Part shown: positions 973-17,904 of the stretch, piece after piece | Layout of the letters: each line of letters begins with the position of its first letter | How positions within the stretch are numbered: position 1 is the stretch's first letter | DNA from: Bacteroidales bacterium | Lineage (GTDB): Bacteria > Bacteroidota > Bacteroidia > Bacteroidales > JAFGHD01 | Assembly: GCA_016939365.1 (NCBI GenBank) | Contig: JAFGHD010000174.1 | Span: 1-57,490 of the forward strand | Direction: 5' to 3' | Length of the DNA: 57,490 bases | Notes under the pieces: generated by a model | The model's input: only the letters and a program-made list of their open reading frames with translations | Databases searched by the model: none | Told to the model about the DNA's origin: nothing | Translations under genes and position numbers: made by a program

Positions 973-3260
973 TACCATGCAGATATGTACGGTTTGTATT
1001 TTTTTACTTCCCCTAATAGAAAAGCTGACAACATCCGCGCCTGTGCCTCGATGATTTCAGTCAGGCGGGTTTCCTTTTTCTTATATCTGATCACAGTCTG
1101 CAATCTCATGCTGACTTTTTCGGCCAGCCGACGGCGTGTGGCGGCATCAAGCATTCCATTTTCCACCCTGATCTCTTCTCCTTTGCTGATCATGGCAAAT
1201 ACGACCCGGTCTACTGCCTGCTGCCTGAATTCCTCAATCAGGTCGAATATCAGTGTCGGCTTGCCGTGCTGGGGTTTATGAAGGAAACTGATATACGGGT
1301 TCAGACGCGCTTTGGTCACCGCCTCCCAGATGCGTGCGTAGAGTATTCCGTATCCATAGTTCAGAAGGCAGTTGACTGTATCTGATGCACCCTGTCTCAC
1401 GCGACCTTCAAAACTGATATAATCGTTCAGAAGCAGTCCGACCTGTTTCCAGTAATAACCGGCTGCCCGGCCCTCGGTGGAAAAAAGGAGCCCCCTGAGG
1501 ATTTCATGATCGGCCGCCGGAAGTTCCAGCGCTTCGCCGGCCAGTTTTTCCATATTACCGATACTGTCGCCGTAATGAATGTTGAAATCGTCTCCTGTAT
1601 TTTTTCGGTATTTATAATGGTATTTGATCAGGTACATCTGGTTGGTGATCTTGGCGTGTACGATCAGCCGTGCGAGCAACGAAGCTTTACCGTTTAAGAA
1701 GGCTGCCATCTGGGCATCGCCCTGCTGCTGTGTCTGGAAAAACGGGGCCTGCAGCAGCGCATAGGGCTTCCCATCCCGCCCGATAAAATCCAAAGAGATG
1801 TTGTTCATGGCGCAATGGGCGATCACATTGGACGATATGGCAACCCCCTGCGATAATATAAGGATGTTTTTCAACTGATCGAGTTTCACCTCGTTGACTT
1901 TCTTCCCTTTTTCCTTAACTGATATGGTGTTCCGTGTTTTGCCGAGGAAAATTCCGGGTTTGCTCACAATGAGCTCCATACCCCGGGATTCGAGTTTCCG
2001 GTATGTCGTCCGCTCCCTGCGGATCATCTTCCGGGCTTCGGGGCTGGCCTTTTTAGCTTCCGGTCCGGATTTCGGCGTGCGCCGGAGCCTGTCTATGATT
2101 TCTGTAACAAGTATGTTTTTTCTTTCCTGCATTGCTTCCGTCAGGAACTGCACACTCATGAGCCATTCCCTTAGATCCTGCTTATTACCGACAGCGCCGG
2201 TAATAAATGCCGAGACACATTTTTCCTTCAGAGACTTATACATGGCCCAGTCAATCATTTCGAGCTTTTCGCTACCGATCAGTTGTGCATAGTAACGGCC
2301 GATGCCATTGGTCACTTCGGTGAGATGATCCATATCCAGATGGCCGCCGGTAAACCGTACAGCCTGTTGGACGTCGTTTTTCAGTTTGCGAAGTTTATCG
2401 TTCGAGATGGTTAGCTCCCCGTTGTTGAACCAGATGCCCAGATACTCGAAGCCCTCGGAGACCTTTTTCACGCATGCGCCGGGATTCAGCCTGATTTTCA
2501 GGGTGTTGACGATGTAATTCCTGACGTCATCCAGCGCCCGGAACGCCTCGCCCTCTTTTTTTGACAGGATGATAAAGTCGTCGGCATACCTGATATAGCC
2601 ATAATTACGGGTAGTCATCATCACATCGAGCGGATGCAGATAGAGGTTAGCCAGCAACGGTGAGATCACACCGCCCTGAGGGGTGCCGGTGATCCGGTCA
2701 TGCCAAGTGCAGTCACCGGTGATCTTTCCCATTCTCAGCCATAATTCGGTAAGGTGGACGATGTATTCATCCCCCACCACTCCGGTGAACATCTGAAGGA
2801 GCGGCTCATGGGGAATAGTATCGAAATACCTGTCGATATCGCACAGGGTGATCCAGTCTCTTTTCTCGTTGACGATCAAATGCCTGGCTTTTCGGATTGC
2901 CTTCAGCGGACCCTTCTGGGGTCTGTAGGCATAACTGACATTGAGGAACATTTTTTCGAACAACGGTTCAATGAGGATCTTCACAGCCACCTGAACCACC
3001 TTATCGCGTACGGCAGGGAGGCCCAGAATACGGCGGCCGCCTTTTTCCTTCGGGATGGATACCTGTCTGTAGGGTTTTGGTATGTAGGTCTTGTCAGAGA
3101 TATCCCTGAGCAGGTCATCCAGATTTGCATCGATATTTTCCCCGAACTCTTCCACTTCCACATTATCCACTCCGCCTGCAGATCCTTTCATCTGCACTGT
3201 TTTCCAGGCCGCAGTAAGCAGTTGGATATTGCACAGCCGTTGATAAAGTTCTGTACCCAT
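972..3260 (-). CDS. cas1: Reverse transcriptase-Cas1 fusion protein
   Basis: This 762-residue protein joins an N-terminal group II intron-like reverse transcriptase (about residues 30-320) to a C-terminal Cas1 integrase (about 430-762). The RT part has the active-site YADD at 225-228, the TPQGGVISPLLANLYL motif and a first catalytic region at LCDIDRYFDTIP. The Cas1 part has STEGRAAGYYW (Glu about 596), a His in PQHGKPTL (about 665) and DLIEEFR, which together look like an intact metal-binding set. RT-Cas1 fusions in type III systems are known to acquire spacers from RNA as well as DNA; that this one does so is inference. Cas6 is a separate gene ending 8 bp upstream, although Cas6-RT-Cas1 triple fusions also occur in nature. 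cas2 follows with a one-base overlap. Confidence 0.97.
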   Translation of the reverse strand: MGTELYQRLCNIQLLTAAWKTVQMKGSAGGVDNVEVEEFGENIDANLDDLLRDISDKTYIPKPYRQVSIPKEKGGRRILGLPAVRDKVVQVAVKILIEPLFEKMFLNVSYAYRPQKGPLKAIRKARHLIVNEKRDWITLCDIDRYFDTIPHEPLLQMFTGVVGDEYIVHLTELWLRMGKITGDCTWHDRITGTPQGGVISPLLANLYLHPLDVMMTTRNYGYIRYADDFIILSKKEGEAFRALDDVRNYIVNTLKIRLNPGACVKKVSEGFEYLGIWFNNGELTISNDKLRKLKNDVQQAVRFTGGHLDMDHLTEVTNGIGRYYAQLIGSEKLEMIDWAMYKSLKEKCVSAFITGAVGNKQDLREWLMSVQFLTEAMQERKNILVTEIIDRLRRTPKSGPEAKKASPEARKMIRRERTTYRKLESRGMELIVSKPGIFLGKTRNTISVKEKGKKVNEVKLDQLKNILILSQGVAISSNVIAHCAMNNISLDFIGRDGKPYALLQAPFFQTQQQGDAQMAAFLNGKASLLARLIVHAKITNQMYLIKYHYKYRKNTGDDFNIHYGDSIGNMEKLAGEALELPAADHEILRGLLFSTEGRAAGYYWKQVGLLLNDYISFEGRVRQGASDTVNCLLNYGYGILYARIWEAVTKARLNPYISFLHKPQHGKPTLIFDLIEEFRQQAVDRVVFAMISKGEEIRVENGMLDAATRRRLAEKVSMRLQTVIRYKKKETRLTEIIEAQARMLSAFLLGEVKKYKPYISAW

Positions 3261-3268
3261 TACTGGCT

Positions 3269-4294
3269 TTATTCAGGGGGCTGATGGATGGAAAAGTGCC
3301 CGAAGCCTGCGGATGTGGACAGACCGATATGTATGATACCCGCCGTTCGGAGCAGCGCCAGATACCGGGAGATGCCCGTGCCGAATGTCAGCAGGCCGGT
3401 ATTTCCGGATATCCGGTAACGATTGTCGTACCTGCGGCTGGAACAGGCATATGATACCTCCTGCAATACCGTTTCATCCGGCTCCACCCCCTCATCGTCA
3501 GTGACCGTATGGTTCGATTCCTGCATTTCCGTGCCGCAGTATAGATACGAGAGCAGTTGTATCCGTGAGGATGCTATCTTCACCAGGTGGTTCAGGCTGA
3601 AATCACCCGCATGTTTTTCAGGCAGGGATAGTGGAGTGAGGAGTGCTATTTCGGTTTTTTTGTTCCTGTTAGGTGCTTTTTCCAGCGGTTCTGCGGTCCA
3701 AGGGATCGGTTCCACACCGGGCAGAAGGCTGCCGTTGGCATAAAGCGGGAAGGTGGCGCCTGCGCCGTTGACCGCAGAGGCCATCGTAAAGACAAGGGGG
3801 TGCCCGGCATTTCTTTTAACGGCATTTGGTTTTTGCCGGCCGACACCATCAGCACCCATAAGGGTCATGGCCCTCAGGATATCGGCCAGGTATTCCAGCG
3901 AATCCCCGACAAGCGTCATGTCGAAGGTGAGCGTCTCGTCAGCAGAGTATTTATGTTTCAGGTGCGGAGCGGAAATGACAAATGGTTTGGGATGGTCGCG
4001 GTATTTTCGGGGCAGAGGTCGTACGGCAGAGCCCGGCAAAGCCATGAGCTTCGGAAATGCGCATTGGTTCAGGAGCATACATGTACCGCAGGGCATTTGC
4101 TTTGAAGGGTATGAGTGCATCAGGCATACCGTTTTTTTCAGGGCCTGCCCGAAAGCGCCACTGATCACATCGGCGGGGAAATATTTTTCCGGTATGGATA
4201 CCGGAGCGGCTACCCGGAATAAAAAGCGCAGACGGTACAGCCTGAACCCATCGGGTATAAGATATGAGGAATCCTTTACAGGTTTTGTTTTCAT
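3269..4294 (-). CDS. cas6: CRISPR pre-crRNA processing endoribonuclease Cas6
   Basis: Cas6 cuts the long array transcript at each repeat to give crRNAs. The 341-residue product has a RAMP-type C-terminal glycine-rich loop (GLSTSAGFGHFSI) and a cluster of four Cys near the N-terminus (C57, C69, C72, C78, around MPCGTCMLLNQC) of the kind seen in the PF10040-type Cas6 subfamily found in type III systems. A middle stretch, MTLMGADGVGRQK, fits the first RAMP fold. The gene lies 9 bp after the receiver-protein gene and 8 bp before RT-cas1, in the same direction. The hairpin plus 8-base tail in the repeats is a plausible substrate. I did not identify the catalytic His with certainty. Confidence 0.9.
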   Translation of the reverse strand: MKTKPVKDSSYLIPDGFRLYRLRFLFRVAAPVSIPEKYFPADVISGAFGQALKKTVCLMHSYPSKQMPCGTCMLLNQCAFPKLMALPGSAVRPLPRKYRDHPKPFVISAPHLKHKYSADETLTFDMTLVGDSLEYLADILRAMTLMGADGVGRQKPNAVKRNAGHPLVFTMASAVNGAGATFPLYANGSLLPGVEPIPWTAEPLEKAPNRNKKTEIALLTPLSLPEKHAGDFSLNHLVKIASSRIQLLSYLYCGTEMQESNHTVTDDEGVEPDETVLQEVSYACSSRRYDNRYRISGNTGLLTFGTGISRYLALLRTAGIIHIGLSTSAGFGHFSIHQPPE

Positions 4295-5179: not shown

Positions 5180-6445
5180 TTACTCCCGGTTACCGGAGGG
5201 GATTACCGTAAACTCCTTTCTCTCCCTGCAGAAGTCGTTATTGATACGGATGGTTACCGTATCTCCCGGCTTAAGTTCCGGGACAGTAAAATGCCTGCCT
5301 TTTTTTTCTGCCTTTGCCCTTAAATCCTCAAATTTCTTTCGCAGGCTGTCTGCCGATTTGACAAGGATATCATCGCCGATGCTGAACGAATAGTACCCTC
5401 CGGTAATATCTTTCACCCGGGCAGGGGGCGTGTCGCCTTTTTTATACCTGCTGTGATCCCGGACAACTGTCACCGGATTTTCAGACTCCGGCTGAACGGG
5501 GTCAGAATGCGGTGCCGCCGGGACATATTGAGCGTGAGGTTCATCAGCCGTTTCATCGGGACATTCGCCTGTGAACGGCACAAACTGCCCGTATCCTACG
5601 TTGGTCTTGGCGCCGATACCCAAAGTGCAAAGGATTCTTTGGAATAGCTGCTTTTTAACGTCTGAGGTAATAATATCCTTGTATAATATGCTGTTATGTA
5701 GTCTGAATGAAAACCTGTAAACCACGCCCGGCATCACTTTCAAAAACTTGATCGGATTCGGGTCAGAGAAAGGATCCAGTTCAGGTCGTACCGGATCGTC
5801 TGTGTGTTTATGGGGCGTGATGTAATCGCTGGCAAAGATGCGTTTTTCGCGGTTATTATAGTTGTTCTCCGGAATGCACAGCGGCCATGCATCATAAAAC
5901 ACATCCCTCCCGTAAACAGGAATGGATTTATTTTGCCGGTTCATTCCGTGGAATATTTCGTTTTCGAGATCATCAACGCTGATATCGCATTTAATCCCCA
6001 GTTCATCCAATAATGATCTGATATAATGATCGCGGCTTTCGGAAAATTCGTTCTGAAGGCTGCGTTTGGTGGTTTTTTTCAGGATTCGTTGAGGGAAAGC
6101 GCTCCGCAGCAATCCCTTCACCGAGCTTCCCGGTATGACGGGCATACCGGTGGTATGATCGAAGTAAAAGCCGATCTTGAATGCTTCAGGTGTCAGCTTT
6201 GACTTCTCATCCCTCACCTGGTCCTCCGGATTTTTATAATCATGGCCATAGCCGCTGCCGGTAAGCAACCCTGGATAGATAGTGACAAGGTCAATTGTTT
6301 CAAAGGTTTTTTTTTGGTCGGTATCATAACCGAAGATCTTATTTTTATAAAGTTCTTCGTTTAAACCAACCAGTTCCTCTCTGGATGAAACACAAAAGTA
6401 CTTTCTGTAGTTCAGCCATCCTGCATTCGGTTGAATATTAGTCAT
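5180..6445 (-). CDS. cmr6: Type III-B RAMP protein Cmr6 with a C-terminal extension
   Basis: Cmr6 is a Cas7-group subunit that caps the backbone of the Cmr effector complex. Recognition rests on MPVIPGSSVKGLLRSAF, the later NPIKFLKVMPGVVYRFSF and LGIGAKTNVGYGQF, which are hallmarks of the family. The Cmr6 core ends near residue 295. About 125 further residues follow: a Pro/Glu-rich linker, then a segment starting KKGDTPPARVKDITGGYY and ending ELKPGDTVTIRI, whose strand pattern resembles an S1 or OB-type nucleic-acid-binding fold. That reading of the extension is by eye only. The start overlaps cmr5 by 8 bp, and the receiver-protein gene follows after 24 bp. Confidence 0.93.
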   Translation of the reverse strand: MTNIQPNAGWLNYRKYFCVSSREELVGLNEELYKNKIFGYDTDQKKTFETIDLVTIYPGLLTGSGYGHDYKNPEDQVRDEKSKLTPEAFKIGFYFDHTTGMPVIPGSSVKGLLRSAFPQRILKKTTKRSLQNEFSESRDHYIRSLLDELGIKCDISVDDLENEIFHGMNRQNKSIPVYGRDVFYDAWPLCIPENNYNNREKRIFASDYITPHKHTDDPVRPELDPFSDPNPIKFLKVMPGVVYRFSFRLHNSILYKDIITSDVKKQLFQRILCTLGIGAKTNVGYGQFVPFTGECPDETADEPHAQYVPAAPHSDPVQPESENPVTVVRDHSRYKKGDTPPARVKDITGGYYSFSIGDDILVKSADSLRKKFEDLRAKAEKKGRHFTVPELKPGDTVTIRINNDFCRERKEFTVIPSGNRE

Positions 6446-6863
6446 TGATCGCCTTGTTTTCGTTATCCACCATCTTGTACACGCGCATTGCCAGTTTCAG
6501 GGCCACACCTGCGCTCACCAGACCGTTCCTCGCCAGTTTTCGCTGTTCGGGATCGAATTGCTTCAGCGAGCGATAAGGGTTTATTTCATCGATATTGGGA
6601 TAGTTTCCTCTGAGTGCCTGGTATATCTTTATCAGCAGTTTAAGTATCCTCTTTTTCTCATCATTGGCCTCGAAGATCATGACAGTGCCCAGGATGCCCG
6701 TATTGATGATGCTACCGCCGAATGAGGCGACGTAACTTCCGTATTTTGATTCTATTTGCTTCTCAACTTCCTTCCCTTTTTTTTCTCCCTTTACAATAGA
6801 TTTATCCTGATCCAGCACATCAATGGCTTTGATGATCATATGGTTATCCGGTTTGTTTTTCAT
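6438..6863 (-). CDS. cmr5: Type III-B small subunit Cmr5 (Cas11)
   Basis: Cmr5 is the small helical subunit that lines the inside of the Cmr filament and helps hold crRNA and target. The 141-residue product has the family's size and its helical pattern, including the stretch YGSYVASFGGSIINTG followed by TVMIF, and a C-terminal helix with LARNGLVSAGVALKLAMRVY. Its start overlaps the cmr4 stop codon (ATGA) and its end overlaps cmr6 by 8 bp. Position between cmr4 and cmr6 strongly supports the call, because the family is poorly conserved in sequence. Confidence 0.92.
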   Translation of the reverse strand: MKNKPDNHMIIKAIDVLDQDKSIVKGEKKGKEVEKQIESKYGSYVASFGGSIINTGILGTVMIFEANDEKKRILKLLIKIYQALRGNYPNIDEINPYRSLKQFDPEQRKLARNGLVSAGVALKLAMRVYKMVDNENKAIND

Positions 6864-7816
6864 TGTTCTTGGTCTTTGATGGTGGATAATTCAATTTTTT
6901 CAACGGAGCATATGCCGTAACCCACGCTGGCGTTGGCGCCAATTTGAACAGGATGTTCCAGCATGGCTCTGCTGAAGGATTCAAAATAGGGATCACCTTT
7001 AGGGTAAAGCACCATAAAGAACAACCTGGACTCCCTGGGCAGCACCTGTTCGTACCAGAGGTTGGTGCTGGTACCGTCCTCAAGGTGGTTCCGGGCAATA
7101 ACGGGCAGGTGGTAATCATCGGCGAGCTCGCAGAACACCTCATCTCTGGCGATGGCAATGCCTTCTTTCCCCAGGAGTTGTGTCACAATATTGCGAGACA
7201 GGTACTCGCTATAAGTGCCGTTAAGGTCCTCCTCCTCAAATTGTACGGGTTTGTCTTGATCGGGATCAGTGTGGCCAATCTTCGTATTTCCAAAGTCGAA
7301 ATTCTGAAGACTTTTCAGCTTTTCATCATCCGTGGTCTTCCTTCCGAACAATCTGATCCGTTCCCTGAAATTTTCGATGAGGTACGGCGATGTTACACGG
7401 TAGAACATGCGGCGGTCGCTTCTTACCGGAAGAGTGATGATATCAGCCTGGAGGAAACGGAACTTACCGGGTATTTGAACCTTTGTGTTCCTGTCTTTTT
7501 CCAGTTCTTCACGATATTTCCTGTATTTCTCATGGTCGTCCTCCTCATCAGGAATATCCGACCGGTCGTTTCCGAAAATATGAAAAAGCATTTCAAACCA
7601 GTCATCCTGTTTCTGTTCCAAAAGAATGTGCCTGAAAAATTCCCTAAGAGCCCCCTTCAGGCTGGTTGAATAGATGCATGGAAGGTTGGTTGCAGGATCA
7701 CGCTGGATCAGGTTATCGATGATCCAGTAGTTCTCTCCGCCCGCGCCGGCATGAAGGTTTGATTTGGCCGTTATCAGAAACGCCGCCACATCATAATTGA
7801 ATTCGGGGTGTGTCAT
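6860..7816 (-). CDS. cmr4: Type III-B RAMP backbone subunit Cmr4 (Cas7)
   Basis: Cmr4 forms the repeated backbone of the Cmr complex and cuts bound target RNA at 6-nt steps. The 318-residue product begins with the typical AKSNLHAGAGG, then IIDNLIQRD containing the likely catalytic Asp (D34), followed by IYSTSLKGALREFFR, the RAMP helix and glycine-rich region. A C-terminal IGANASVGYGICS matches the second G-rich loop. Target RNA cleavage is therefore probably retained. The start is an ATG 20 bp after cmr3; the stop overlaps the cmr5 start by 4 bp. Confidence 0.95.
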   Translation of the reverse strand: MTHPEFNYDVAAFLITAKSNLHAGAGGENYWIIDNLIQRDPATNLPCIYSTSLKGALREFFRHILLEQKQDDWFEMLFHIFGNDRSDIPDEEDDHEKYRKYREELEKDRNTKVQIPGKFRFLQADIITLPVRSDRRMFYRVTSPYLIENFRERIRLFGRKTTDDEKLKSLQNFDFGNTKIGHTDPDQDKPVQFEEEDLNGTYSEYLSRNIVTQLLGKEGIAIARDEVFCELADDYHLPVIARNHLEDGTSTNLWYEQVLPRESRLFFMVLYPKGDPYFESFSRAMLEHPVQIGANASVGYGICSVEKIELSTIKDQEQ

Positions 7817-7836: not shown

Positions 7837-9024
7837 TTATTGAAACATCATATAATTGTAACCGATTTGCCTGAATACGGCATGATCATCACAAATTATT
7901 TCTTCAAATTGTGTTTTGAATTCTTCTTGAATAAAAAATACTGAGCCTCTTCTGATCATGTGGATTGCCACAGGTGATTTATCCGGTCGTTGATATGTGT
8001 GTTTCGAGATATTGCTGCGGATATTTCTGAATCTTTCCTTTTCAGAAAGAATCAGGGCACAGTGTCGTTTGACTTCATCCATCTGATCACCGGTAAGAAA
8101 AGTGCCTGAAAGCAGGACTGCCTTTACCAGGCCATTGTTTACCCTGATCTGGCTGTTTCCGAGGTAGTCGCTGATATTGCTCCTGAAGTCATTCTCACTG
8201 ATTCTGGTGCATTTCATCAGGAAAACAGATCGTTCCTTTCCGAAAAAAACAGTCCTCTCCTGTTCCGAAAAATCAAAATCACTGCTGAACCTGACAATAA
8301 AGCCGAAACCCCACTCATCTGCCAGTATTTTTTTTCTGAATTCCATACCGGGATACTCCTTTTCCTTTCTTATTACTTCAGTATGTGCCAGGTGCCTGTA
8401 TGTTCTTCTGAAATAGCTGTCGTCATGTTCGCAGATTCCCCATTTTTTATGGATGCCGGTAAATATCGCCTTCTTCAATACGGTTTCAGCCTCCGTTAAT
8501 TGATCTGGTTGGGTAAGGTCGTCAGCAGTTCCGGCGAGGTAAGAAACGAAAGGAAACTTGGAGATGAAGTCTTCATTTTTCTCACTAAGAATCAGTTTAT
8601 ATGGGTACTTCGAACCTGCCACCTCCAGGAGGTATAGTCTTTTATCTTTGTCGTGCCACACAATTTCCCTATCTCGTAGAAAGAACTTTTTACCGGAAGC
8701 GTTGGTCAGGAAAACAGGCGATAATCCTACGATTTTCCCGAAGTCGTTTGGTTTGTTATCATCCGGAATGTCTTCAGGAAATGCATTGAAACTTCGTCCT
8801 CCAATGAGTTTAAGGGCTTCAGATGAATTATTGCCTTTTTCAAGGGGGATCAGGTCATGCTGTAACAATATCTGATGCCTGATCAGACCCAGGAGCGCCG
8901 ATTGTTGCGGGAATGAGGCGCTGTGCTGGAAATAGTTGTTCCGGTTTCCCAATTCATGGTTCAGCTCCTGGCCGAAATAATACGGGGCCAACGGTATCAG
9001 CCTGATCAAATAATCGTTGTTCAT
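7837..9024 (-). CDS. cmr3: Type III-B RAMP protein Cmr3 (Cas5 group)
   Basis: Cmr3 binds the 5' handle of the crRNA next to Cas10 at the foot of the complex. The 395-residue product has the family-type opening IRLIPLAPYYFGQEL, then FPQQSALLGLIRHQIL, which resembles the Cmr3 motif with Pro-Gln, Ser and Leu-Gly-x-Ile-Arg. The C-terminal region is more divergent. I place the start at the ATG at 9024 (MNNDYL), since the longer frame begins with TTG. It lies 5 bp after cmr2 and 20 bp before cmr4. Confidence 0.9.
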   Translation of the reverse strand: MNNDYLIRLIPLAPYYFGQELNHELGNRNNYFQHSASFPQQSALLGLIRHQILLQHDLIPLEKGNNSSEALKLIGGRSFNAFPEDIPDDNKPNDFGKIVGLSPVFLTNASGKKFFLRDREIVWHDKDKRLYLLEVAGSKYPYKLILSEKNEDFISKFPFVSYLAGTADDLTQPDQLTEAETVLKKAIFTGIHKKWGICEHDDSYFRRTYRHLAHTEVIRKEKEYPGMEFRKKILADEWGFGFIVRFSSDFDFSEQERTVFFGKERSVFLMKCTRISENDFRSNISDYLGNSQIRVNNGLVKAVLLSGTFLTGDQMDEVKRHCALILSEKERFRNIRSNISKHTYQRPDKSPVAIHMIRRGSVFFIQEEFKTQFEEIICDDHAVFRQIGYNYMMFQ

Positions 9025-9029
9025 GGTTG

Positions 9030-10727
9030 TCAATCTTTATCCTTGCTTCTGATGAAATGGGTGAATCTTAATATACCGTAAAGCAGATCCATTTTCTGGC
9101 TGGTGATTCTGCCGTTTTCCGGCAATGAGTTGATGATCATTGTAAGTTCCTCGAAGAAGTTCTTGTTTGCAGCGTAATTCTCATTGAAGTTGTTCCTGAA
9201 AAAATTCTCAACCTTGTCATGGTAAGGTGAAATATGGCTGATCACATCTTTTAAAAGGATCAGCTTGTATGTAAAGCTGTTCAGGAATTTTTCATCATTG
9301 ATCTTATTGAAAAAAGACCGCATCATTTTCAGAAGATCGCGGTTATTCTTATCGATGATGAAGTTGATGCACTGGCCGCTGTGCTTTCTGAAGTCGATTT
9401 TCAGGGAATTCCGCTGGTCAATTTCATATTTCAGGTAATGCATCGCATCATAGGAGGTGATTTTCGCCTCGTACAAAGGAAATTTATAATAGCTGAGTGA
9501 AATCCCATAAGTAAGAGACGGCAGCTTCTTCTCCTCGATTCCGATTTCCTTGGCAAATTGAAAGATGCTTCCAAATTCTTTATCCAGTTCGTCGATCAAA
9601 TTGAAGATGGTGATTTTCGCGGCGTTTTTTTCATTTCGGAATACCACCGGGGCAAAAAACAGCAGATCATCACCACCGCAGTATACCGGTGCGCCGCCGT
9701 GATCCAGAATCAACACAGAAGCCTTTTGGGCAAACTCAAGCATTTTTTCAGAAAATCTCCTGACCATTGAGTTTGACCGGTCATTATTTTTCTCAATTGT
9801 CCCGGCTTTTTTAATTATTTGTCCTATCCGGTCCCCATCGGCATGAACAATTGCCACATATTTGTGGTATTGCATGAATTCATCTTTAAAAGCCTTTTTA
9901 AGTCCTTCGACAAGACGGTTCTCTTCATTGTCCTCTTTCTTTCCTGATAATTCTCTCGTTATATGATTTTCAAAATGCTCCCTGTATTTTTCCGGATTAA
10001 TGATTTTGAGCTCCCTGCTTGCAATCTCAATTAAAGAGTCGAAGCCTTGGCGGGGTTTTTCATTGACCAGTTTTCTGGCTGTTTCCGGAAGTCTGATGAT
10101 TTTATTGTAGTTTTCGCTGAACCCGTCACGGTAAAGGAACGAGCCATTGACACGGTCGAAAAAAATCCTCAGTGGATTCAGCCCGGATTCATCTGTAATA
10201 TCCTCCAAAGGATTGATGCGTGCCTCCAGTTCCAGGACATCGAGAATTGCAGTGGCTTCATTGACAATATTCCCACCCGGTTGAATAGGAAATGCGGATG
10301 ATACGATCCTCAGATAGCTGAAAAGGAACGTTTCAATGTCATCCTTTTCAAAAGTGTTTATATGACCATGAATTTTGGCTGCTACATCTTTTATTACCTT
10401 GTTAATGGCATTTCTTATTCTCTGCAGGTTTTCACTGTTCTCAGATTCAATTATGATACGGTCGGGGTAAAGGCCGGCCCCAAGAACATTTTCTTCGGAG
10501 ATTTTTTCATCAAAAGGTAAAAGGATGTAGCCGTCAACTTTGTTTGTGTTGTCGACCGGTTGACCTTTTCCATCCACTGTAACCTTATCAGCCGTAATTT
10601 CCCGGATGATATTCCGTATCAGATATGAGAACAGGTAACTGGCGCCCCAGAGCTCCCTTGTTTTCCTGGCGGAAAGGAGTGTTTCGATGATGGGGCCGAT
10701 AGATATTCCGATGTAGTTCTTATTCAT
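9030..10727 (-). CDS. cmr2: Type III-B Cas10/Cmr2 with GGDD cyclase motif, no HD domain
   Basis: Cas10 is the large subunit that, when the complex binds foreign RNA, makes a nucleotide second messenger. This 565-residue version starts directly in the first palm domain (ISIGPIIETLLSARKTREL, with WGASYLFSYLI), so the usual N-terminal HD nuclease is absent and it should not cut DNA. The second palm has HADGDRIG and an intact YCGGDDLLFF (GGDD at 351-354), so nucleotide polymerisation should be active. In Bacteroides fragilis an HD-less Cmr2 beside CorA and NrN joins ATP to S-adenosylmethionine; the same product is inferred here from context. The start overlaps the hepT stop by 8 bp. Confidence 0.96.
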   Translation of the reverse strand: MNKNYIGISIGPIIETLLSARKTRELWGASYLFSYLIRNIIREITADKVTVDGKGQPVDNTNKVDGYILLPFDEKISEENVLGAGLYPDRIIIESENSENLQRIRNAINKVIKDVAAKIHGHINTFEKDDIETFLFSYLRIVSSAFPIQPGGNIVNEATAILDVLELEARINPLEDITDESGLNPLRIFFDRVNGSFLYRDGFSENYNKIIRLPETARKLVNEKPRQGFDSLIEIASRELKIINPEKYREHFENHITRELSGKKEDNEENRLVEGLKKAFKDEFMQYHKYVAIVHADGDRIGQIIKKAGTIEKNNDRSNSMVRRFSEKMLEFAQKASVLILDHGGAPVYCGGDDLLFFAPVVFRNEKNAAKITIFNLIDELDKEFGSIFQFAKEIGIEEKKLPSLTYGISLSYYKFPLYEAKITSYDAMHYLKYEIDQRNSLKIDFRKHSGQCINFIIDKNNRDLLKMMRSFFNKINDEKFLNSFTYKLILLKDVISHISPYHDKVENFFRNNFNENYAANKNFFEELTMIINSLPENGRITSQKMDLLYGILRFTHFIRSKDKD

Positions 10728-11070
10728 TTTCCAGTTTTTTTAAAATGGACTGTAAATCAGATTTCAGGACGGGGATAAACTGTGTAATAATATTCCATAC
10801 AATGGCAGAGCTGACATCAAAATACGAATGGATGATCCGGTTTCGCAATGAAATAATCCTGTGCCAGCCTATATGCGGGTGATCATTGTAAAAGGACTCG
10901 GTAAATTTATTTGCTGCTTCTCCCAATACTTCAAGGTAGCGTTCCACGGCAGCCCGTGTTTTTCTGTCGGACTGATAATCATCATATGACATATCCCGGA
11001 TGAAGAGTTCTATATTGCCTATAGCCTCAAGCATATCCTCCAGCAGTATTTCCGCGGGTCTATTCCACAT
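10720..11070 (-). CDS. hepT: HepT-like HEPN RNase toxin (DUF86 family)
   Basis: HepT-type HEPN proteins are RNases held inactive when their partner MntA attaches AMP to a Tyr in the active site. The 116-residue helical protein carries the full motif R-x4-H-x-Y: R76, N77, H81 and Y83 in LRNRIIHSYF. The N-terminal helix bundle (ILLEDMLEAIGNIELFI) and EVLGEAANKF are also typical. Its start lies inside the end of the mntA gene (11-bp overlap) and its stop overlaps the cmr2 start by 8 bp. It is thus translationally locked into the Cmr operon rather than lying beside it. The active site looks intact. Confidence 0.92.
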   Translation of the reverse strand: MWNRPAEILLEDMLEAIGNIELFIRDMSYDDYQSDRKTRAAVERYLEVLGEAANKFTESFYNDHPHIGWHRIISLRNRIIHSYFDVSSAIVWNIITQFIPVLKSDLQSILKKLENE

Positions 11071-11338
11071 AAATCACCTCATTTTTGATGTTTTCCCATT
11101 GTCTGGGCTTTAATGACTCCATATGGATGAGATCCACTTTTTTACCGAGTAACCGTTCCAGTTCATCCGCAAGGTCTATGAATTCGATACCTACAGGCCC
11201 GGTGAAGCTGACCAGTATATCCACATCGCTGCCAGCAGTGGCGTCGCCCCTGGCCTGCGAACCGAAAATGGCCATGCGGTCAATGGGATAGTGGAGGCGA
11301 AGCGCAGGCAGGAATGACTGAAGTTGTTGTACGATCAT
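11060..11338 (-). CDS. mntA: MntA-like minimal nucleotidyltransferase antitoxin
   Basis: MntA is the antitoxin of HEPN/MNT pairs and silences HepT by AMPylating it. The 92-residue product has the nucleotidyltransferase signature FGSQARGDATAGSDVDILV: Gly26-Ser27, then the metal-binding Asp pair D38 and D40, followed by GKKVDLIHMESL, where a third Asp is expected. The start shares one base with the cmr1 stop (TAATG) and the end overlaps hepT by 11 bp. Antitoxin-before-toxin order is retained. The complete catalytic set suggests a working enzyme. Confidence 0.92.
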   Translation of the reverse strand: MIVQQLQSFLPALRLHYPIDRMAIFGSQARGDATAGSDVDILVSFTGPVGIEFIDLADELERLLGKKVDLIHMESLKPRQWENIKNEVIYVE

Positions 11339-12741
11339 TATTGATTGGTTTTCTTTAAACTGGAATATATTTTTCTAAGAATATCAAAATTATCATGATG
11401 CTTGAATTTTTTTTCAATATGCTTTTCTATATCAAACTTCTCTATTATCCAATCAAATAGTATGTTTATATCTTTAATATTACCAATTTTGAGAGTTAAA
11501 GATGCGCGAGTATCTTTTTGAATAATAAAGCGTTGTTTAATGAAATATTCAGGAATTGGCTCAGCTTCAAAATATACAGTATAGCAGTTTTTTTCTTTTT
11601 CATAAAATGGTAAAAATCGTATTGGTGATTTGAATCTTTTAACAAATTCGTTCTCATTATTTCCCCTTCTGATCCAGGTACCAGGTAGTTCCTCTTTAGC
11701 ATGTGTTTTTATAAGCTTTGCTTTCCCGTAGTTTCTCCATGACTCCTCTGTTGAGAGTCCAAATAAATCCCTCCAGAGATAAAGTTCACCGTTTTGCTGG
11801 ACAGTTTTAAATAATTCTGATTTTTCATGATAATTTCTCTGCTCGTCAAAACCCCTTTCATAAACCTTGTCGGCATTTTGTATATCACTTATTCTTCGAG
11901 ATATTGCATTAATTTCTCTTGGATCAGCATCTCTTTGATAGTATTGTCTATTAAACAGTTTTTCTTTTATTGTTTTTTTGTCCCACTGAATTCTTTTTTC
12001 GTACAGGAATTTAAATAACAATGACTTAAAATAAAAAACTGATTCTGTTGTATTGAGTATTTCATCATTACCATCGTCATTTATGTCTTTCTTAACAAAC
12101 TTGAATTTATCCTTAATGTTAATTCCAGATCTGAGGCTTCTATAAAATAGATCAATATAATTAAATAATAATTTACCTGTTTCAACCCAGTCATCTGATT
12201 TAGCTGTCGGTGATACAGTGAAAAAGAACTTTTTATATGGCGTATGATAATAATTATTATTTCGAAAAGCATCGCTGGATTTCTCAGGAAAAAAAAAGCC
12301 ATATCCTTTGGATTGTCTATTGCCAAAACCACCAATGCTGAAAAAAGAACAAATGTTTTCATTTATCAGGTCTAATAGACCTTTACTATAGGAATGAATT
12401 ATCATTTTTAATGAACCCTCGACAAAACTCATCTTGAACTTATTGTGATTTCCAGTTCCCATATGGCCAAAAAAAGAGCCCCATCCTTGACATTCCTGCC
12501 AACAAATCCCTGCACCTTCATATAATTCTATTTTAATTTTGTATTTAAGTGATTTCTTATCCTTTTCCCATACTTGCTTCCATTCATCCATTATTGGAAT
12601 ATTATTCATCTTACAGAAAGAAATAATAAAATGATCAAGTTTTGGTTTCAATTCTGTCGCCCTCAGCGTTGCTCCAAGCTGATCGTGCTGGAAATGGATG
12701 AGCGGGGTGTGCTGCTTCAGTGTGAATTCGATCTTATACAT
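11338..12741 (-). CDS. cmr1: Type III-B RAMP protein, Cmr1-like
   Basis: This 467-residue protein occupies the Cmr1 place; Cmr1 sits at the head of the Cmr complex and contacts the 3' part of the crRNA. The opening TLKQHTPLIHFQHDQLGATLRATELKPK and the glycine-rich SIGGFGNRQSKGYGF fit divergent Bacteroidota Cmr1 proteins with two RAMP folds. The middle is Lys/Asn-rich. The gene is far more AT-rich than its neighbours: 14 G+C of 60 bases in both 11401-11460 and 12001-12060, against 31 of 60 in corA at 13561-13620. This may mean separate acquisition. A 73-bp AT-rich gap, the longest in the operon, lies before it. The alternative is another RAMP family member at the same position. Confidence 0.78.
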   Translation of the reverse strand: MYKIEFTLKQHTPLIHFQHDQLGATLRATELKPKLDHFIISFCKMNNIPIMDEWKQVWEKDKKSLKYKIKIELYEGAGICWQECQGWGSFFGHMGTGNHNKFKMSFVEGSLKMIIHSYSKGLLDLINENICSFFSIGGFGNRQSKGYGFFFPEKSSDAFRNNNYYHTPYKKFFFTVSPTAKSDDWVETGKLLFNYIDLFYRSLRSGINIKDKFKFVKKDINDDGNDEILNTTESVFYFKSLLFKFLYEKRIQWDKKTIKEKLFNRQYYQRDADPREINAISRRISDIQNADKVYERGFDEQRNYHEKSELFKTVQQNGELYLWRDLFGLSTEESWRNYGKAKLIKTHAKEELPGTWIRRGNNENEFVKRFKSPIRFLPFYEKEKNCYTVYFEAEPIPEYFIKQRFIIQKDTRASLTLKIGNIKDINILFDWIIEKFDIEKHIEKKFKHHDNFDILRKIYSSLKKTNQ

Positions 12742-12814: not shown

Positions 12815-13339
12815 TCAATGTGTGTCCGGATCGTTGCCGCGAAAAGCCTGATTGTATTCCTGCCACAGGATCAGGAATTTCTTTTCGTCCACCTCTTCCT
12901 TCTCATTTGTGTTTTTCCTTATGCTCGTTTTTTCATCCTTTTTCTGCTCTGTTGTTTCGGTGTCGGAGGTTTTGGTTTTGCTCAGCCCGATCAAACGGAA
13001 AAAGTCCTGATTCCTGAGGCCTTCCTCTGTCTTTGCAGATGAATTTCTCAGTAATTCCGCGGAGTGCTCCTTTTCCCATTGCATCCGGTCAAGCTCATAT
13101 CGTTGTTTCAAACCGTTCTGGGCAAGCAAATACCAGTACCTGATCAGGTTCAATGCAAGCCATATGACTCCGGCCATCAGTACCAAAAGGGTAAAAGGAT
13201 AAAGGATCCTTAGCCATTTCGAAAAAATGTTAGATTTGTCCGGGATAAGATCCGGTAAAAAGAAAGAGGCCGGTATCATGACCACCGCTACGCATGTTAT
13301 GATCAGGGCAGTTCTCAGAAATCGTCTGTGGTTTTCCAT
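12815..13339 (-). CDS. Two-helix membrane protein encoded with CorA
   Basis: I do not recognise this 174-residue protein as a member of a named family. Two hydrophobic segments are clear, about residues 8-30 and 44-68, followed by a charged, mostly helical cytoplasmic-type tail of about 105 residues rich in Lys and Glu, ending near EYNQAFRGNDPD. There is no signal peptidase site. The start lies 25 bp inside the end of corA, so the two are probably translated together, which suggests a partner or accessory subunit of the CorA effector. Cmr1 follows after 73 bp. Function is unknown. Confidence 0.72.
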   Translation of the reverse strand: MENHRRFLRTALIITCVAVVMIPASFFLPDLIPDKSNIFSKWLRILYPFTLLVLMAGVIWLALNLIRYWYLLAQNGLKQRYELDRMQWEKEHSAELLRNSSAKTEEGLRNQDFFRLIGLSKTKTSDTETTEQKKDEKTSIRKNTNEKEEVDEKKFLILWQEYNQAFRGNDPDTH

Positions 13340-14991
13340 GTGTTGTATGTTTTTTTATTTCTGCTTCGCGGAATGAACACAATCCACACGATCAGGCTGC
13401 TCATTACAATACTGAACATGCTGATCCAGAATGGCCAGCGAACAGCCAGGTACAAACTAGACTTATCAAACACATTCATTCCGAATATACCGGCGACGAG
13501 TGCGGCCGGAAGGAAGATGGCCGATAACCTCGTCAGCCGGGTGATGATCCTGCTTTCGTTGCGCTGTTCTTTGAGATTCACGTATCCGTGCAGCTCGCTG
13601 ATCTCTGCATCCAGATCCTTCACCTGTTCGTTCAGCTTCATGTGTTTCTGCAACAGGTCGTACAGCTCTATGCCCTGCTCCTGTGCGGTCACCTCCCTGA
13701 AATATATCTTGTTGACGAACCGGATATACTGTTTGTAAAGGCTGCCGACCTTGTCGGGCAGCTTCTTCTCATTCACCCGGATCAGTCCGGATATATCAGT
13801 GACCTCATCAGAGAACTTCAGGATGCAGGCTCTTTGCACCAGGCACAGTTCCACCAGCTTGTAGTACATGGTCTGCATGTGATTGACCAGGAATGCAGCG
13901 TCATTCTTCCTGAGAGTGGTAAGCTCCGGAGTCAGACATACAAATGAGTACCGGCTGACACCGAAGAAGGCGCCGTAGTCGAGCCATCGGTCATTTGTGT
14001 GTTTTCTGAGCAGGTCTTTGGCCATGAGTGTATTCCGGCAGGTTCTGGAGTACGCGTCCACAAAAAGGTATTTGTAAAACCAATCCAGCCGATCCGGTAA
14101 ATCTTCGTTTATTACGTTTGTATCAATGATATTTTTCTTCCACTGTGATTCAAGTTCATTGGTCAGGTGATCGTTTCCGTACCAGCATACCACGAACATC
14201 CGGTCGTCCATCACAGGCGAGATTTTTATCTTCAGCCCGTCCATGTGGTCGCAGGTTTCTGTGGTCAGTGGTACCCCCCTGAACAACCTGCTGATGAATG
14301 CCGGAAGATTGAAAATGCCTCTTCCGAAATTGCCGGATGCGGTATATTTCATAAAGTCTTCAGATGCTTCCCCTGTGATGCCGATTTCTTGGGATAACTC
14401 ACTGTTTTTGACCATTTCAAGGCCTTCCATGAAACCGCCGGGCAAAAACTGGCCGGCAGTGCCGATCATATCTCCCGGGATACCGAAATACGGGGGATAC
14501 AGCCTGCGGCCGTACTGGTTGATCCGGAGTATGTCTTCGGGTTCCTTTTGCTCTGAATTCCTGTTGTTCAGATGAAAACTCAGCACCCCGACTCCTGTGC
14601 TGTAGAGGTGCAGTATGATGCTGTCGATGAGCAGCCGGTATTCTTTGTCCGGAGGCTTAATAATATAATGTTGCGTGTCCGGGGCAAGGTTGTATTCGAA
14701 ATGTGCCAGGAATGCATCTTCGTCCCCTGGTTGTGAGCAGGATGCCGGCGCCCTCCTGTCATACAGTATATCTCTGACAAAGTCATAGAAGTAATTGGCT
14801 TCGTTATACTTCAGCCTGCTGTTGACATCAAAGCCGGTTCTTTTCCATACGGATAACGGTAAAGAGCCGGTAAAAGGCCCGAGACTGCATTTATCCTCAA
14901 GCAAGGCTTCAGCAAACCCTTTTCCGCAGTTTTCCCACTGGAAAGGAAAGAGGAAGACATGATAGCTGTAAAGTTCATCAAGATTATCCAT
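13315..14991 (-). CDS. corA: CorA-like membrane effector of type III CRISPR signalling
   Basis: CorA proteins form pentameric cation channels. This 558-residue version has a long soluble N-terminal region (about 480 residues, longer than in classic CorA), a coiled-coil-like stretch (LNEQVKDLDAEISEL), then two membrane helices at about 487-505 and 519-540 with the family motif GMN at 504-506 in GIFGMNVF. In Bacteroides fragilis a CorA encoded with a Cmr system is activated by SAM-AMP and disrupts the membrane to stop phage. The same role is inferred here from the neighbours NrN and HD-less Cas10, rather than housekeeping magnesium uptake. It overlaps nrN by 8 bp and the two-helix protein gene by 25 bp. 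Confidence 0.9.
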   Translation of the reverse strand: MDNLDELYSYHVFLFPFQWENCGKGFAEALLEDKCSLGPFTGSLPLSVWKRTGFDVNSRLKYNEANYFYDFVRDILYDRRAPASCSQPGDEDAFLAHFEYNLAPDTQHYIIKPPDKEYRLLIDSIILHLYSTGVGVLSFHLNNRNSEQKEPEDILRINQYGRRLYPPYFGIPGDMIGTAGQFLPGGFMEGLEMVKNSELSQEIGITGEASEDFMKYTASGNFGRGIFNLPAFISRLFRGVPLTTETCDHMDGLKIKISPVMDDRMFVVCWYGNDHLTNELESQWKKNIIDTNVINEDLPDRLDWFYKYLFVDAYSRTCRNTLMAKDLLRKHTNDRWLDYGAFFGVSRYSFVCLTPELTTLRKNDAAFLVNHMQTMYYKLVELCLVQRACILKFSDEVTDISGLIRVNEKKLPDKVGSLYKQYIRFVNKIYFREVTAQEQGIELYDLLQKHMKLNEQVKDLDAEISELHGYVNLKEQRNESRIITRLTRLSAIFLPAALVAGIFGMNVFDKSSLYLAVRWPFWISMFSIVMSSLIVWIVFIPRSRNKKTYNTWKTTDDF

Positions 14992-15751
14992 GTCTGATCA
15001 GATTGATGATCTCCGGAATCCAATTGTGTATAATTTCGGTTTCTGTGAACGCGCTTTCAGCCAGGCCGAAGAATCCATTTTCACCGCCTCCGGAATACGC
15101 TTTGTTTGACTTGATAAAGTCTGTGTACCTGGCAGACAGCAACGCCACTCCGTTTCCGTAAAAGCAAAGATTTCTTGAAGTGTAGATCAATAGACGGTGG
15201 TCCAGTCCGTATCTCCGGTCGGTGATCGCTGAGAATTTCATTGTCTCAGACCTGATAACCGTTATTCCGTTTCTGTATTCAAGATTGTTTTCGATGCTCT
15301 TTTCGGCCAGTTGTTCATCTCTTTCTGTGACGCCCTGGGCCTCTCGGTCCTTTGCCCTGATTTCGCAGATCAGCTCTTCCGAGGCACCCATCTGCTTCAT
15401 GGCCGGGATGTAACCGCGGTCGTTGGCTGCAACAAGCTTTTGATAATCAGTTAATTCTATGTTAAGCAGACCGGCGACCTGCTCGATGGAGGTGGGCCAG
15501 CCTGATTTTTCATTATGGTGGTCGATCTCGATGTAATCTTCAGGAGGAGTGGTGTCTCTGATCAGTTCAATTCCGACAGGAATACCCTTCATACTGTCAA
15601 GCAGATCGTAGTAATGGCTGAGCCTTGCGCCCCAACTAAGGTTCCTGTCGTAAAAAGGTAAACTCTTTTCATGAAGGATTGAACGTATCTCAAGCATTTC
15701 GAGATCATGGCCTCCGAGTAGAAAAAAGTAGGGTTTGATGTTGATCATCAT
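14984..15751 (-). CDS. nrN: DHH-family phosphodiesterase, NrN-like, probable SAM-AMP hydrolase
   Basis: The 255-residue protein has the DHH motif at 77-79 (YIEIDHHNEK), an earlier metal-binding region GGHDLEM and a C-terminal glycine-rich YSGGGENGFFG comparable to the DHHA1 part. Such enzymes split short nucleotides. NrN proteins next to CorA in Bacteroides fragilis type III-B loci degrade SAM-AMP and so switch the signal off; this protein is proposed to do the same. I place the start at ATG 15751, which overlaps the stop of the VWA gene (ATGA), rather than 19 codons further upstream inside that gene. The end overlaps corA by 8 bp. A general nanoRNase is the alternative, but the operon context argues against it. 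Confidence 0.88.
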   Translation of the reverse strand: MMINIKPYFFLLGGHDLEMLEIRSILHEKSLPFYDRNLSWGARLSHYYDLLDSMKGIPVGIELIRDTTPPEDYIEIDHHNEKSGWPTSIEQVAGLLNIELTDYQKLVAANDRGYIPAMKQMGASEELICEIRAKDREAQGVTERDEQLAEKSIENNLEYRNGITVIRSETMKFSAITDRRYGLDHRLLIYTSRNLCFYGNGVALLSARYTDFIKSNKAYSGGGENGFFGLAESAFTETEIIHNWIPEIINLIRHG

Positions 15752-16503
15752 TCGTCGAAATTGATCAGCATTGCACTGAACCGTTTCGGGCTGAAATCCG
15801 CCCTGCAATGCGTGAAATACTCTTCCCAGAACTTCTGAAGCCGTGTAAAGCTGTCGGAATCTGAAGTGTTTGCCCCTGAAATATAAACTTTTACCTGACT
15901 CAGGTCGGGCAGACGCTCCTTTTGACTGAGTTCATTTAAAATCCCGGAGGTCTCTTCATTGCCGGGTATTTTTCTCTCAAAATTGTAGTTACGGTCTGTA
16001 TGCATCATGTCTGACATGATCACAAGCACCTTCTGATTATTTCCGTAGTTGCTGAATACCTTTTCTGCAAGCTGAAGCGCACCTAAGATGTCCGTGGATT
16101 GTGAAGCTTCTCTTAGCTCAAGCAACGTTGATACCTCATTATGGATACTGTCCTTTAATGATCTCAGATGTATTCCAAAAACTTTTCTCTCTTCTTTTTC
16201 ATACATCGGGTTGTCGGTTTTTGACCGGTAAACCGGAAAGGACAGATTAACCGGCAGCCTGTTTTCGGCGAGGGATTTGTCGGATATCATACCTGCGACC
16301 AAAATGTCGCCGGCATCAACTGCACGCAAAACAACCGAGAAGTTATCCATGTAATTCTTACGAATGTCCTCATAATCAACGCTCCCTGAAATATCGAACA
16401 GGACGATGAATATTTTTCCTTCTCCGGGAGCCTTGTCCGGACTGCTGCAGGAAGCAACCAGAACGGACATAACAATGGTTGTGATGATATATCTGATTTT
16501 CAT
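15748..16503 (-). CDS. VWA-domain lipoprotein in the CRISPR-CorA operon
   Basis: The 251-residue product starts with a lipoprotein signal (MKIRYIITTIVMSVLVASC, lipobox ending at C19), so it should be anchored to a membrane on the periplasmic side. The mature part reads as a von Willebrand factor A-like domain: the metal-binding DISGS at 37-41 after a hydrophobic strand IFIVLF, a Thr in SQSTDILGAL and an Asp in VIMSDMMH. VWA domains bind other proteins through a metal ion. I chose the ATG at 16503 because the longer frame would bury the signal peptide. It lies 7 bp after the four-helix protein gene and overlaps nrN. Its role in CRISPR defence is unknown to me; a periplasmic sensor or clamp for CorA is speculation. 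Confidence 0.82.
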   Translation of the reverse strand: MKIRYIITTIVMSVLVASCSSPDKAPGEGKIFIVLFDISGSVDYEDIRKNYMDNFSVVLRAVDAGDILVAGMISDKSLAENRLPVNLSFPVYRSKTDNPMYEKEERKVFGIHLRSLKDSIHNEVSTLLELREASQSTDILGALQLAEKVFSNYGNNQKVLVIMSDMMHTDRNYNFERKIPGNEETSGILNELSQKERLPDLSQVKVYISGANTSDSDSFTRLQKFWEEYFTHCRADFSPKRFSAMLINFDE

Positions 16504-16510
16504 GATCAGT

Positions 16511-17641
16511 TTAGTTGAGCGTTGATACCACAATGGCATCCTCATTCGAATGACATTGCCAGTCAAGGTTTTCGGGTTTCAGATCGTCGGGGATGCTCAG
16601 CAACCTGGGTTCAGCATTGAAGCATTTCGGAGTAAGCCCTTTATGTCTGACGTACAGGTTTGCGGTCCTGTATGACCTTACCAGCCATTCAATCCTCTCT
16701 ACCAGCTCCTGCGCGTTATGGAGGATTTTACTATGACTTTTTTGCCGGAGTTGCCTTTTTTCGGCCAGTAGTTTCGATGTACGCTGTTTTTCCCTGGCAG
16801 CCTGTTCAGCGTCTTCTGATTCCCTCCTGAGCACTTTCATGGCCATTCTGTGGATTCTATGAATCCTGTTGTACTCCGACTGGTTTGCAAAGGAAGAACT
16901 GTATGAGATAAGTGTAGCTGCGAGGAAAAGCCCCAGGTTGATGATGATGAACAGAAAAGCTGCTGTGGAAGGAGACAGGTTCACCTTTAAAGTGGAATGA
17001 GACTTCATTGAATCGAACAAAACTTCCCTGAAGATCGCGAGGGAGATGATCAGGCACACAGCGAAGACCGGGACGATCAGCAGAAAAATCTTCTCTGTTG
17101 TACTTTTCGAACTTTGTTTCAGTGTTTTACCGAACCAATGCGCAAGCAAAGGTATTGTGGCGCACATTCCCGCGGCCATTAAGTAGGTTTCGGCCAGTCC
17201 TGCTCCGAGTATCTGGAATGCGATACTGTTCAGGGGAAACTCAACCACTCCGATGAACAGGAGCCAGAACAGCGCTCCATTCCTTGAAATGGTTGGTTGA
17301 GGAAATTCACTGAGTTTTTTCTGGGTGGCATTGACTTCTACTGCTGCTGCCGCTGCGTCCTGCGTTTCTTTATGCAGGGATTCTTCTGCATTTCTGTGCA
17401 ATTGCATAAGCATGCAGTATTCAGATTTAAGCTTCTTATCCGTTTCTTTCCAGTCGGCACAAATCCGCATGAGCTTCTGCTGCCCAATTTCGAAAAGCTC
17501 AGATTCATATAGGGCCGGTTCTTCCTGATCAACAGGCGGATAAGGGTCTTTGGGTGCTTTATCAAATGGCCAGAACCGCCACCGGAAATCCTGTCCATCC
17601 TGCTTTCCTTTCCTTCTGACTTTTCGGTAGGAATAATGCAT
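16511..17641 (-). CDS. Four-helix membrane protein with flanking coiled coils, first gene of the cas operon
   Basis: I do not recognise a named family in this 376-residue protein. It has a basic N-terminus, a predicted coiled coil (about 60-115: KLMRICADWKETDKKLKSEY then Ala-rich helix), four hydrophobic segments at about 125-148, 152-173, 183-206 and 222-248, and a second long charged coiled coil (about 258-320). Both ends are probably cytoplasmic. The start is taken at ATG 17641, since the longer frame begins with TTG. It heads the minus-strand operon and is followed after 7 bp by the VWA lipoprotein gene. Together with that lipoprotein, CorA and the two-helix protein it could form a membrane complex; that is inference. 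Confidence 0.75.
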   Translation of the reverse strand: MHYSYRKVRRKGKQDGQDFRWRFWPFDKAPKDPYPPVDQEEPALYESELFEIGQQKLMRICADWKETDKKLKSEYCMLMQLHRNAEESLHKETQDAAAAAVEVNATQKKLSEFPQPTISRNGALFWLLFIGVVEFPLNSIAFQILGAGLAETYLMAAGMCATIPLLAHWFGKTLKQSSKSTTEKIFLLIVPVFAVCLIISLAIFREVLFDSMKSHSTLKVNLSPSTAAFLFIIINLGLFLAATLISYSSSFANQSEYNRIHRIHRMAMKVLRRESEDAEQAAREKQRTSKLLAEKRQLRQKSHSKILHNAQELVERIEWLVRSYRTANLYVRHKGLTPKCFNAEPRLLSIPDDLKPENLDWQCHSNEDAIVVSTLN

Positions 17642-17659
17642 ATCATTTTTTTTGGTCAA

Positions 17660-17667
17660 TAAAGATA
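17660..17667 (-). promoter_or_regulatory. Candidate -7 element for the type III-B operon
   Basis: On the minus strand the sequence TATCTTTA lies 19 bases before the proposed first start codon and fits the Bacteroidota -7 consensus TAnnTTTG except for its last base. The nearest TTG at 17694-17696 is 26 bases upstream, wider than the usual 19-21, so the match is weak. Confidence 0.3.
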
Positions 17668-17904
17668 AAAAAATCAATCAGATGTTTTTATCACAACCTT
17701 CATAATATAAAAGCAAATTGCACGAAAGAAATATGAAGTTACTTCTGTCCCCCTCTGTATCCTCAATGTGTACTTCCGATAGGTGGCCAGCCATTGCCCA
17801 ATGTTGGTAGGTTTGGGGGGCTACTAATGGATATCATAAAGCGATAGAATTACATATTTATCTATCATATAAAGAAGTTTTATTACTTATGCTTTGATCC
17901 AGAA

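Follow-up and report, generated by a model that had tools for sequence, protein, structure and literature searches.

The question raised by this locus is what a toxin-antitoxin pair is doing inside a CRISPR operon. In the window (the whole stretch of Bacteroidales DNA that we analysed, 57,490 nucleotides long), HEPN and MNT motifs are encoded in adjoining, overlapping genes, hepT and mntA. The two genes lie on the minus strand, with cmr1 (12741-11338) on one side and cas10 (10727-9030) on the other. The features of the locus are listed below from the upstream end; labels beginning with L denote loci used for comparison.

16511..17677, minus strand: 388-aa protein (u388); no Pfam match; 38% identity to its counterpart in L150
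15748..16566, minus strand: VWA-like protein; VWA_2 5e-4 (below cut-off); 41% identity to its L150 counterpart
14984..15808, minus strand: DHH-family CorA-associated phosphodiesterase (NrN-like); PADLOC DHH_CorA 3.6e-82
13315..14991, minus strand: CorA-type membrane effector; PADLOC CorA 1.9e-129; PF01544 4e-14
12815..13339, minus strand: 174-aa protein encoded between corA and cmr1; hydrophobic stretches at the N terminus; no Pfam match
11338..12741, minus strand: cmr1; PADLOC Cmr1 2.3e-60
11060..11338, minus strand: mntA (92 aa), antitoxin of the minimal nucleotidyltransferase type, with GSx10DxD and the third Asp (D69) preserved
10720..11070, minus strand: hepT, predicted HEPN ribonuclease toxin, 116 aa; R76-x4-H81-x-Y83 intact
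9030..10727, minus strand: cas10/cmr2 with GGDD palm, 565 aa; TIGR02577 4.9e-36; Cas10-Cmr2_palm2 1.1e-19; GGDD by alignment
7837..9033, minus strand: cmr3; TIGR01888 3e-7 (below cut-off), with position and homologues in other loci
6860..7816, minus strand: cmr4; TIGR02580 1.8e-39
6438..6863, minus strand: cmr5; TIGR01881 4e-4 (weak), with position
5180..6445, minus strand: cmr6; TIGR01898 1.2e-33
3269..4294, minus strand: Cas6-like RAMP; PF10040 1e-5
972..3260, minus strand: reverse transcriptase-Cas1 fusion; homologous to the annotated cas1 in L159
5..187, no strand: end of the CRISPR array; three 37-bp repeats with 73-bp spacing; the contig end cuts the array

The genes run in this order from u388 to cmr6, beyond which follow an uncharacterised gene, the Cas6-like gene, the RT-Cas1 fusion, a cas2-like gene and the array edge. 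The operon encodes Cmr1 to Cmr6 (Cmr3 and Cmr5 weakly by model) and a GGDD Cas10, with corA and an NrN-type DHH gene adjoining, as expected of type III-B; the Cas10 gave no HD-domain match. As the CorA and DHH proteins match their models strongly (1.9e-129 and 3.6e-82), we assign the operon to the CorA/NrN, SAM-AMP-type III-B systems for which these proteins are markers (PMC11229360, PMC12255297). Family membership suggests that the window Cas10 would produce SAM-AMP.

Some other aspects of these operons deserve mention. The u388 and VWA-like genes precede nrn in the same order in the window (15748-17677) and in L150 (11585-13503); the VWA-like protein has a possible lipoprotein signal and the 388-aa protein has hydrophobic stretches. 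We regard both as candidates for new accessory genes in CorA/NrN type III-B systems. A small ORF is often present in the corA-cmr1 gap of cmr loci, and the RT-like and Cas1-like halves of the window fusion match separate ORFs in L013. NrN and CorA form a single fused protein in L075 (440-2866), L159 (4488-6869) and L158 (4971-7664), and the cmr operon of L011 has a SMODS-type (CBASS-like) nucleotidyltransferase gene (14920-15639) flanked by cmr6 and cas6.

To establish what the pair encodes, we compared both proteins with family models and known structures. HepT belongs to PF01934 (HepT-like; 4.7e-27, with a score of 94.5 against a cut-off of 23.5 bits) and carries the Rx4HxY motif as RNRIIHSY, whereas MntA belongs to PF01909 (NTP_transf_2; 7.4e-15) and carries GSx10DxD as GSQARGDATAGSDVD. 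The residues R76, H81 and Y83 of HepT are invariant across 32 homologues, and G26, S27, S37, D38, D40 and D69 of MntA across 28, which bears out the suggestion, made in an earlier note on this DNA, that both active sites are intact. By sequence, phmmer detected no relative of HepT in the PDB. Its AlphaFold model (pLDDT 93), on the other hand, gave HEPN/MNT toxins as all of its best 19 Foldseek matches in the PDB (7ae6, 7ae8, 7ae9 and 5yep), with probabilities of 0.9 to 1.0 yet modest E values of 0.01 to 0.4. The MntA model (pLDDT 96) had as its top PDB matches 7bxo (MntA with AMP-PNP; E = 7e-6) and 1wot. The two proteins scored 37.7 and 50 bits against NCBIfam equivalog cut-offs of 60 bits. 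Such scores place them in the same superfamily and not in the curated equivalog; the cut-off is a naming threshold and does not define chemistry. Matches were to HEPN/nucleotidyltransferase families only, and no CARF, SAVED or CorA-type sensor domain was found in HepT or MntA. By its genes and predicted folds, the pair is thus an ordinary HEPN/MNT (HepT/MntA) type VII toxin-antitoxin.

We then considered whether the tight packing of the pair speaks for its integration into the operon. The genes cmr1 and mntA share one base (TAATG), mntA and hepT overlap by 11 bp, and the hepT stop lies over the cas10 start by 8 bp, all as the earlier note had described, except that it counted four overlapping junctions where there are three. 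It had further argued that a chance insertion would not produce them, a point that does not hold. Overlap of mntA and hepT is general (63 of 65 pairs measured elsewhere, 8 bp in most) and is therefore uninformative on embedding. Overlap of hepT with cas10 occurs in all three intact cases in this slot (8 bp in the window, 4 bp each in L150 and L019), but a 4-bp overlap of hepT with the next gene is also seen at ordinary genes, i.e., in L127 (methylthiotransferase-like) and L120, and L150 bears an insertion scar, described below.

The earlier note had proposed a survey of cmr operons for embedded MNT/HEPN genes, and the arrangement proved to recur. A Cas10-alignment scan of the genome collection yielded 64 loci, to which searches of sampled genomes contributed others. 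Only three intact pairs occupy the cmr1-cas10 slot, in genomes that are drafts and mostly MAGs: the window, L150 (genome G696) and L019 (a Chitinophagales MAG), all with intact motifs. Two damaged loci, L075 and L190, hold remnants of the pair beside pieces of nrn, cmr1 or cas10. The whole outer operon (u388, VWA, nrn and corA) is common to L150 and the window. Inserts of at least 240 bp were found in the cmr1-cas10 gap of 5 of 64 loci that have both genes, compared with 1 of 244 over the four other cmr gaps (Fisher P = 0.0017). The five comprised mntA-hepT twice (L019 and L150), an IS200-like transposase (L043), an AAA/DUF4143 ATPase (L045) and a cas6-like gene (L057), so mntA-hepT is the commonest guest, and the entry of unrelated genes suggests that the slot is receptive in general. 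The transposase occupies 9123-9713 of L043 and the ATPase 8697-9974 of L045. MntA was roughly 30-fold over-represented in cas10 loci (2 observed versus 0.065 expected; P = 0.002), a comparison in which defence islands were not controlled for. No pair is present in most CorA-type cmr operons, the sister loci L014 and L044 among them, and the plasmid-borne cas10 relatives H1 and H4 likewise have cmr1-cas10 without it. Profile searches of viral contigs with Cas10 and MntA gave no confirmed relatives, and an MntA search of phages and plasmids returned none above 48% identity among the matches listed. We found no description of HepT/MntA in type III loci in the open-access papers searched.

How the pair may have entered is indicated by the related loci. 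In L150, a broken copy of the cas10 start lies between cmr1 and mntA (38 of 41 nt; score 67 versus a shuffle maximum of 32), and we interpret this duplicated cas10 5' end as an insertion scar. In L190 (8935-11810), a decayed CRISPR locus carries three tandem mntA-hepT pairs, two of them 93% identical; a cmr1 5' end follows each of the three, and an nrn fragment adjoins. In L075, an mntA 72% identical to that of the window is followed by a relic of the cas10 start (1 in 5,000 dinucleotide shuffles was as good), and hepT is gone, except perhaps for a remnant of about 15 nt.

Scars of this kind are not confined to CRISPR loci. Flanking direct repeats scoring at least 40 were present at 14 of 66 pairs, against rates of 1.8% in random windows and 0.07% in swapped flanks; some of the repeats (L132) are of low complexity. 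With close geometry, repeats flanked 7 of 67 pairs versus 16 of 1,136 single-ORF controls (P = 5e-5), and several of the control matches are probably located in repeat arrays. The repeats correspond to ends of genes left whole on the hepT side. Stand-alone pairs with direct copies (30 to 170 bp) of the adjacent gene end were seen in L189, L175, L185, L101, L121, L095 and L173. By eye, the duplicated neighbours include GDP-fucose synthase-like, ComB-like, PhzF-like, YjbQ-like, CarB-like and BirA-like genes, and in these cases the hepT side carries the gene intact. The gene-end copies look like a general insertion scar of mntA-hepT modules. The window and L150 slots leave no room for a transposase, and the repeats found are direct copies of gene ends; target duplication and circle integration by a single crossover would both give this picture equally well.

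Given the scar in L150 and comparable scars next to housekeeping genes, the close-packed junctions are largely a product of cassette insertion. Together, the general mntA/hepT overlap and insertion at gene ends explain why hepT overlaps both mntA and cas10, with no need to invoke design. The window pair itself retains no scar, and its cmr1/mntA junction has neither leader nor scar, a feature unique to the window that is suggestive of trimming after entry.

We next asked whether the cmr-borne pairs descend from one entry or several. In a concatenated MntA+HepT tree, the window, L150, L019 and both usable L190 units group with two stand-alone pairs in a clade of seven (support 95/87), five of which come from cmr loci. 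The Cas10 tree instead joins the window with L014 (98*) and L019 with L044 (95*), and neither L014 nor L044 has the pair. A single clade for the three pair-bearing Cas10s was rejected (AU test, P = 0.015). As the pairs are close kin while their host Cas10s do not form one clade, the pairs appear to have entered several times. A sister relationship between the window and L150 Cas10s was not rejected (P = 0.19), which is compatible with two to three entries or with an entry followed by losses. A stricter proposal, a single exclusive clade containing all cmr-borne MntAs, was withdrawn: a larger background shrank that clade to the window, L075 and L150 (97/82) and moved L019 outside it. MntA and HepT are short proteins.

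The earlier note had regarded close relatives without the pair, together with stand-alone copies elsewhere, as the mark of a recent random insertion. Such relatives and copies do exist: L014, the closest Cas10 relative of the window, has cmr1-cas10 without the pair, stand-alone copies are abundant, and the window's own genome has two further HepT loci. The pair nevertheless looks neither recent nor random, as it is kin to other cmr-borne pairs and its composition is that of cas10. A recent foreign origin was rejected on this last ground (GC3 of 0.56 and 0.44 for the pair versus 0.50 for cas10). The composition outlier is the window cmr1, with a GC3 of 0.28 and an offset of -0.25 against a mean of -0.05 (SD, 0.055; 56 loci), and the Cmr1 and Cas10 trees conflict. 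The strongly AT-rich window cmr1 (11338-12741) was thus probably exchanged next to the pair. In L075, the cmr1-cas10 part looks replaced beside a kept mntA; taken with the exchange in the window, this suggests that the cmr1/cas10 boundary is a breakpoint. A strong local match had also raised the possibility of a chimeric Cmr1 N terminus, which was rejected because the match is a conserved motif.

With regard to expression, a perfect TAnnTTTG box (the Bacteroidota-type -7 element) lies within 90 bp upstream of mntA in 39 of 68 pairs, compared with about 6% in the control. Twenty-four of the boxes lie 11 to 15 bp before the mntA start codon, a spacing that hints at near-leaderless transcripts. 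In the window, the candidate for a promoter of its own, TAATTTTG at -54, is inside apparently conserved cmr1 codons and could therefore be a chance match.

Taken together, the pair seems best explained as a mobile toxin-antitoxin cassette captured at the cas10 5' end of a CorA/NrN III-B operon, with the net effect of an addiction-type guard. We give this reading a probability of roughly 0.58. After capture at the cas10 start, MntA would move AMP from ATP to Tyr83 of HepT and thereby silence the ribonuclease, as in Shewanella, where the AMPylation of HepT by MntA and the need of MntA for ATP and Mg2+ have been established (PMC7641770). With mntA ahead of hepT and the end of hepT reaching into the cas10 start, the three proteins would be made together. 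A lesion that removed MntA but spared HepT would deprive newly made HepT of its modification and so halt the cell, and a collapse of ATP during infection or CorA activation could do the same. The guard effect would also preserve the cassette itself. The pair may therefore be a built-in guard of the immune system, and it may equally be a stowaway; the operon is the home of the cassette and at most its candidate trigger, and the analysis turned up no link between the pair and the messenger of Cas10. The most general version of the idea seems doubtful to us, namely, that mntA-hepT modules are minimal mobile cassettes that lack their own transposase and insert at gene ends, so that a truncated copy of the gene end (30 to 170 bp) lies next to the antitoxin gene while the gene next to the toxin stays intact, and that in SAM-AMP-type III-B operons such cassettes were repeatedly captured at cas10 or cmr1 starts and co-opted there as a Cas10-coupled guard.

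The pair could instead be a second effector arm: Cas10 fires, CorA depolarises the membrane, ATP or Mg2+ drops, and un-AMPylated HepT cleaves RNA as a back-up arrest. The ATP and Mg2+ requirement of MntA (PMC7641770) suits such a scheme, as do the repeated presence of related pairs in the same slot, their enrichment near CorA-type cas10, the hepT/cas10 overlap in all three intact cases, and a window pair that matches the operon in composition and has no leader or scar. We nevertheless consider it unlikely, since the pair is missing from most CorA-type cmr operons (L014 and L044 among them), cassettes of this kind are also found at housekeeping genes, mobile-type genes have also entered the slot (L043 and L045), and L075 has lost hepT.

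Decay of the pair in L075 and L190, its rarity and the acceptance of unrelated genes in the cmr1-cas10 gap would also fit a neutral passenger, a cassette expressed harmlessly in a tolerant slot with no effect on immunity or operon upkeep. This appears improbable: both active sites are conserved in the three intact cases, the cmr-borne pairs cluster as kin, and L075 has kept the antitoxin and lost the toxin, as fits an active toxin. That NrN also strips the AMP chain from HepT, coupling SAM-AMP turnover to HepT activation, is very improbable, for although nrn or a fragment occurs in all four pair or remnant loci with readable upstream sequence (window, L150, L075 and L190; L019 was left out because its contig ends before any nrn) versus 26 of 51 cmr loci, and the need for a SAM-AMP-degrading activity in immunity is unexplained (PMC12255297), the difference between four of four and about half is not significant and a lyase can substitute for NrN in immunity (PMC12255297).

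If the captured cassette does act as a guard, it would be a protein toxin-antitoxin counterpart of the RNA guard CreTA, in the SAM-AMP signalling branch. Should it prove a mere stowaway, the duplicated gene ends would still give direct access to how the very common HEPN/MNT modules spread, and recognisable scars are then to be expected in many genomes. Either way, scars should be checked for before an accessory gene inside a cmr operon is called a CRISPR effector.

Among known systems, the HepT/MntA pair of Shewanella oneidensis (SO_3166/SO_3165; PDB 5YEP and 7BXO; PMC7641770) shares with the window pair the order mntA-hepT, both motifs and the Pfam families, and its solved structures match the folds predicted for the window proteins. 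The window pair, known here from its sequence, differs in lying inside a CRISPR operon instead of standing alone and in scoring below the NCBIfam equivalog cut-offs. The host operon resembles the CorA/NrN SAM-AMP III-B system of Bacteroides fragilis (PMC12255297, PMC11229360) in its CorA, DHH/NrN-like phosphodiesterase, Cmr1 to Cmr6 and GGDD Cas10 without an HD match; it differs in having mntA-hepT between cmr1 and cas10 and two uncharacterised upstream genes, and its use of SAM-AMP is deduced from the family. CreTA, the RNA guard of Cascade (PMC9458426), is comparable in being a toxin-antitoxin module associated with a CRISPR-Cas locus whose loss it could make costly. It consists of two RNAs, with the toxin repressed by Cascade, whereas the window pair consists of two proteins with no known control by a CRISPR complex and is not a member of that group. 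Toxin-antitoxin pairs embedded in Tn3 transposons (PMC7157771), one of which is a HEPN-MNT pair (TnSod9), are also carried inside a multigene unit and were acquired several times independently; here, the pair is carried by a CRISPR operon, is not seen with a transposase and comes with a duplicated gene end.
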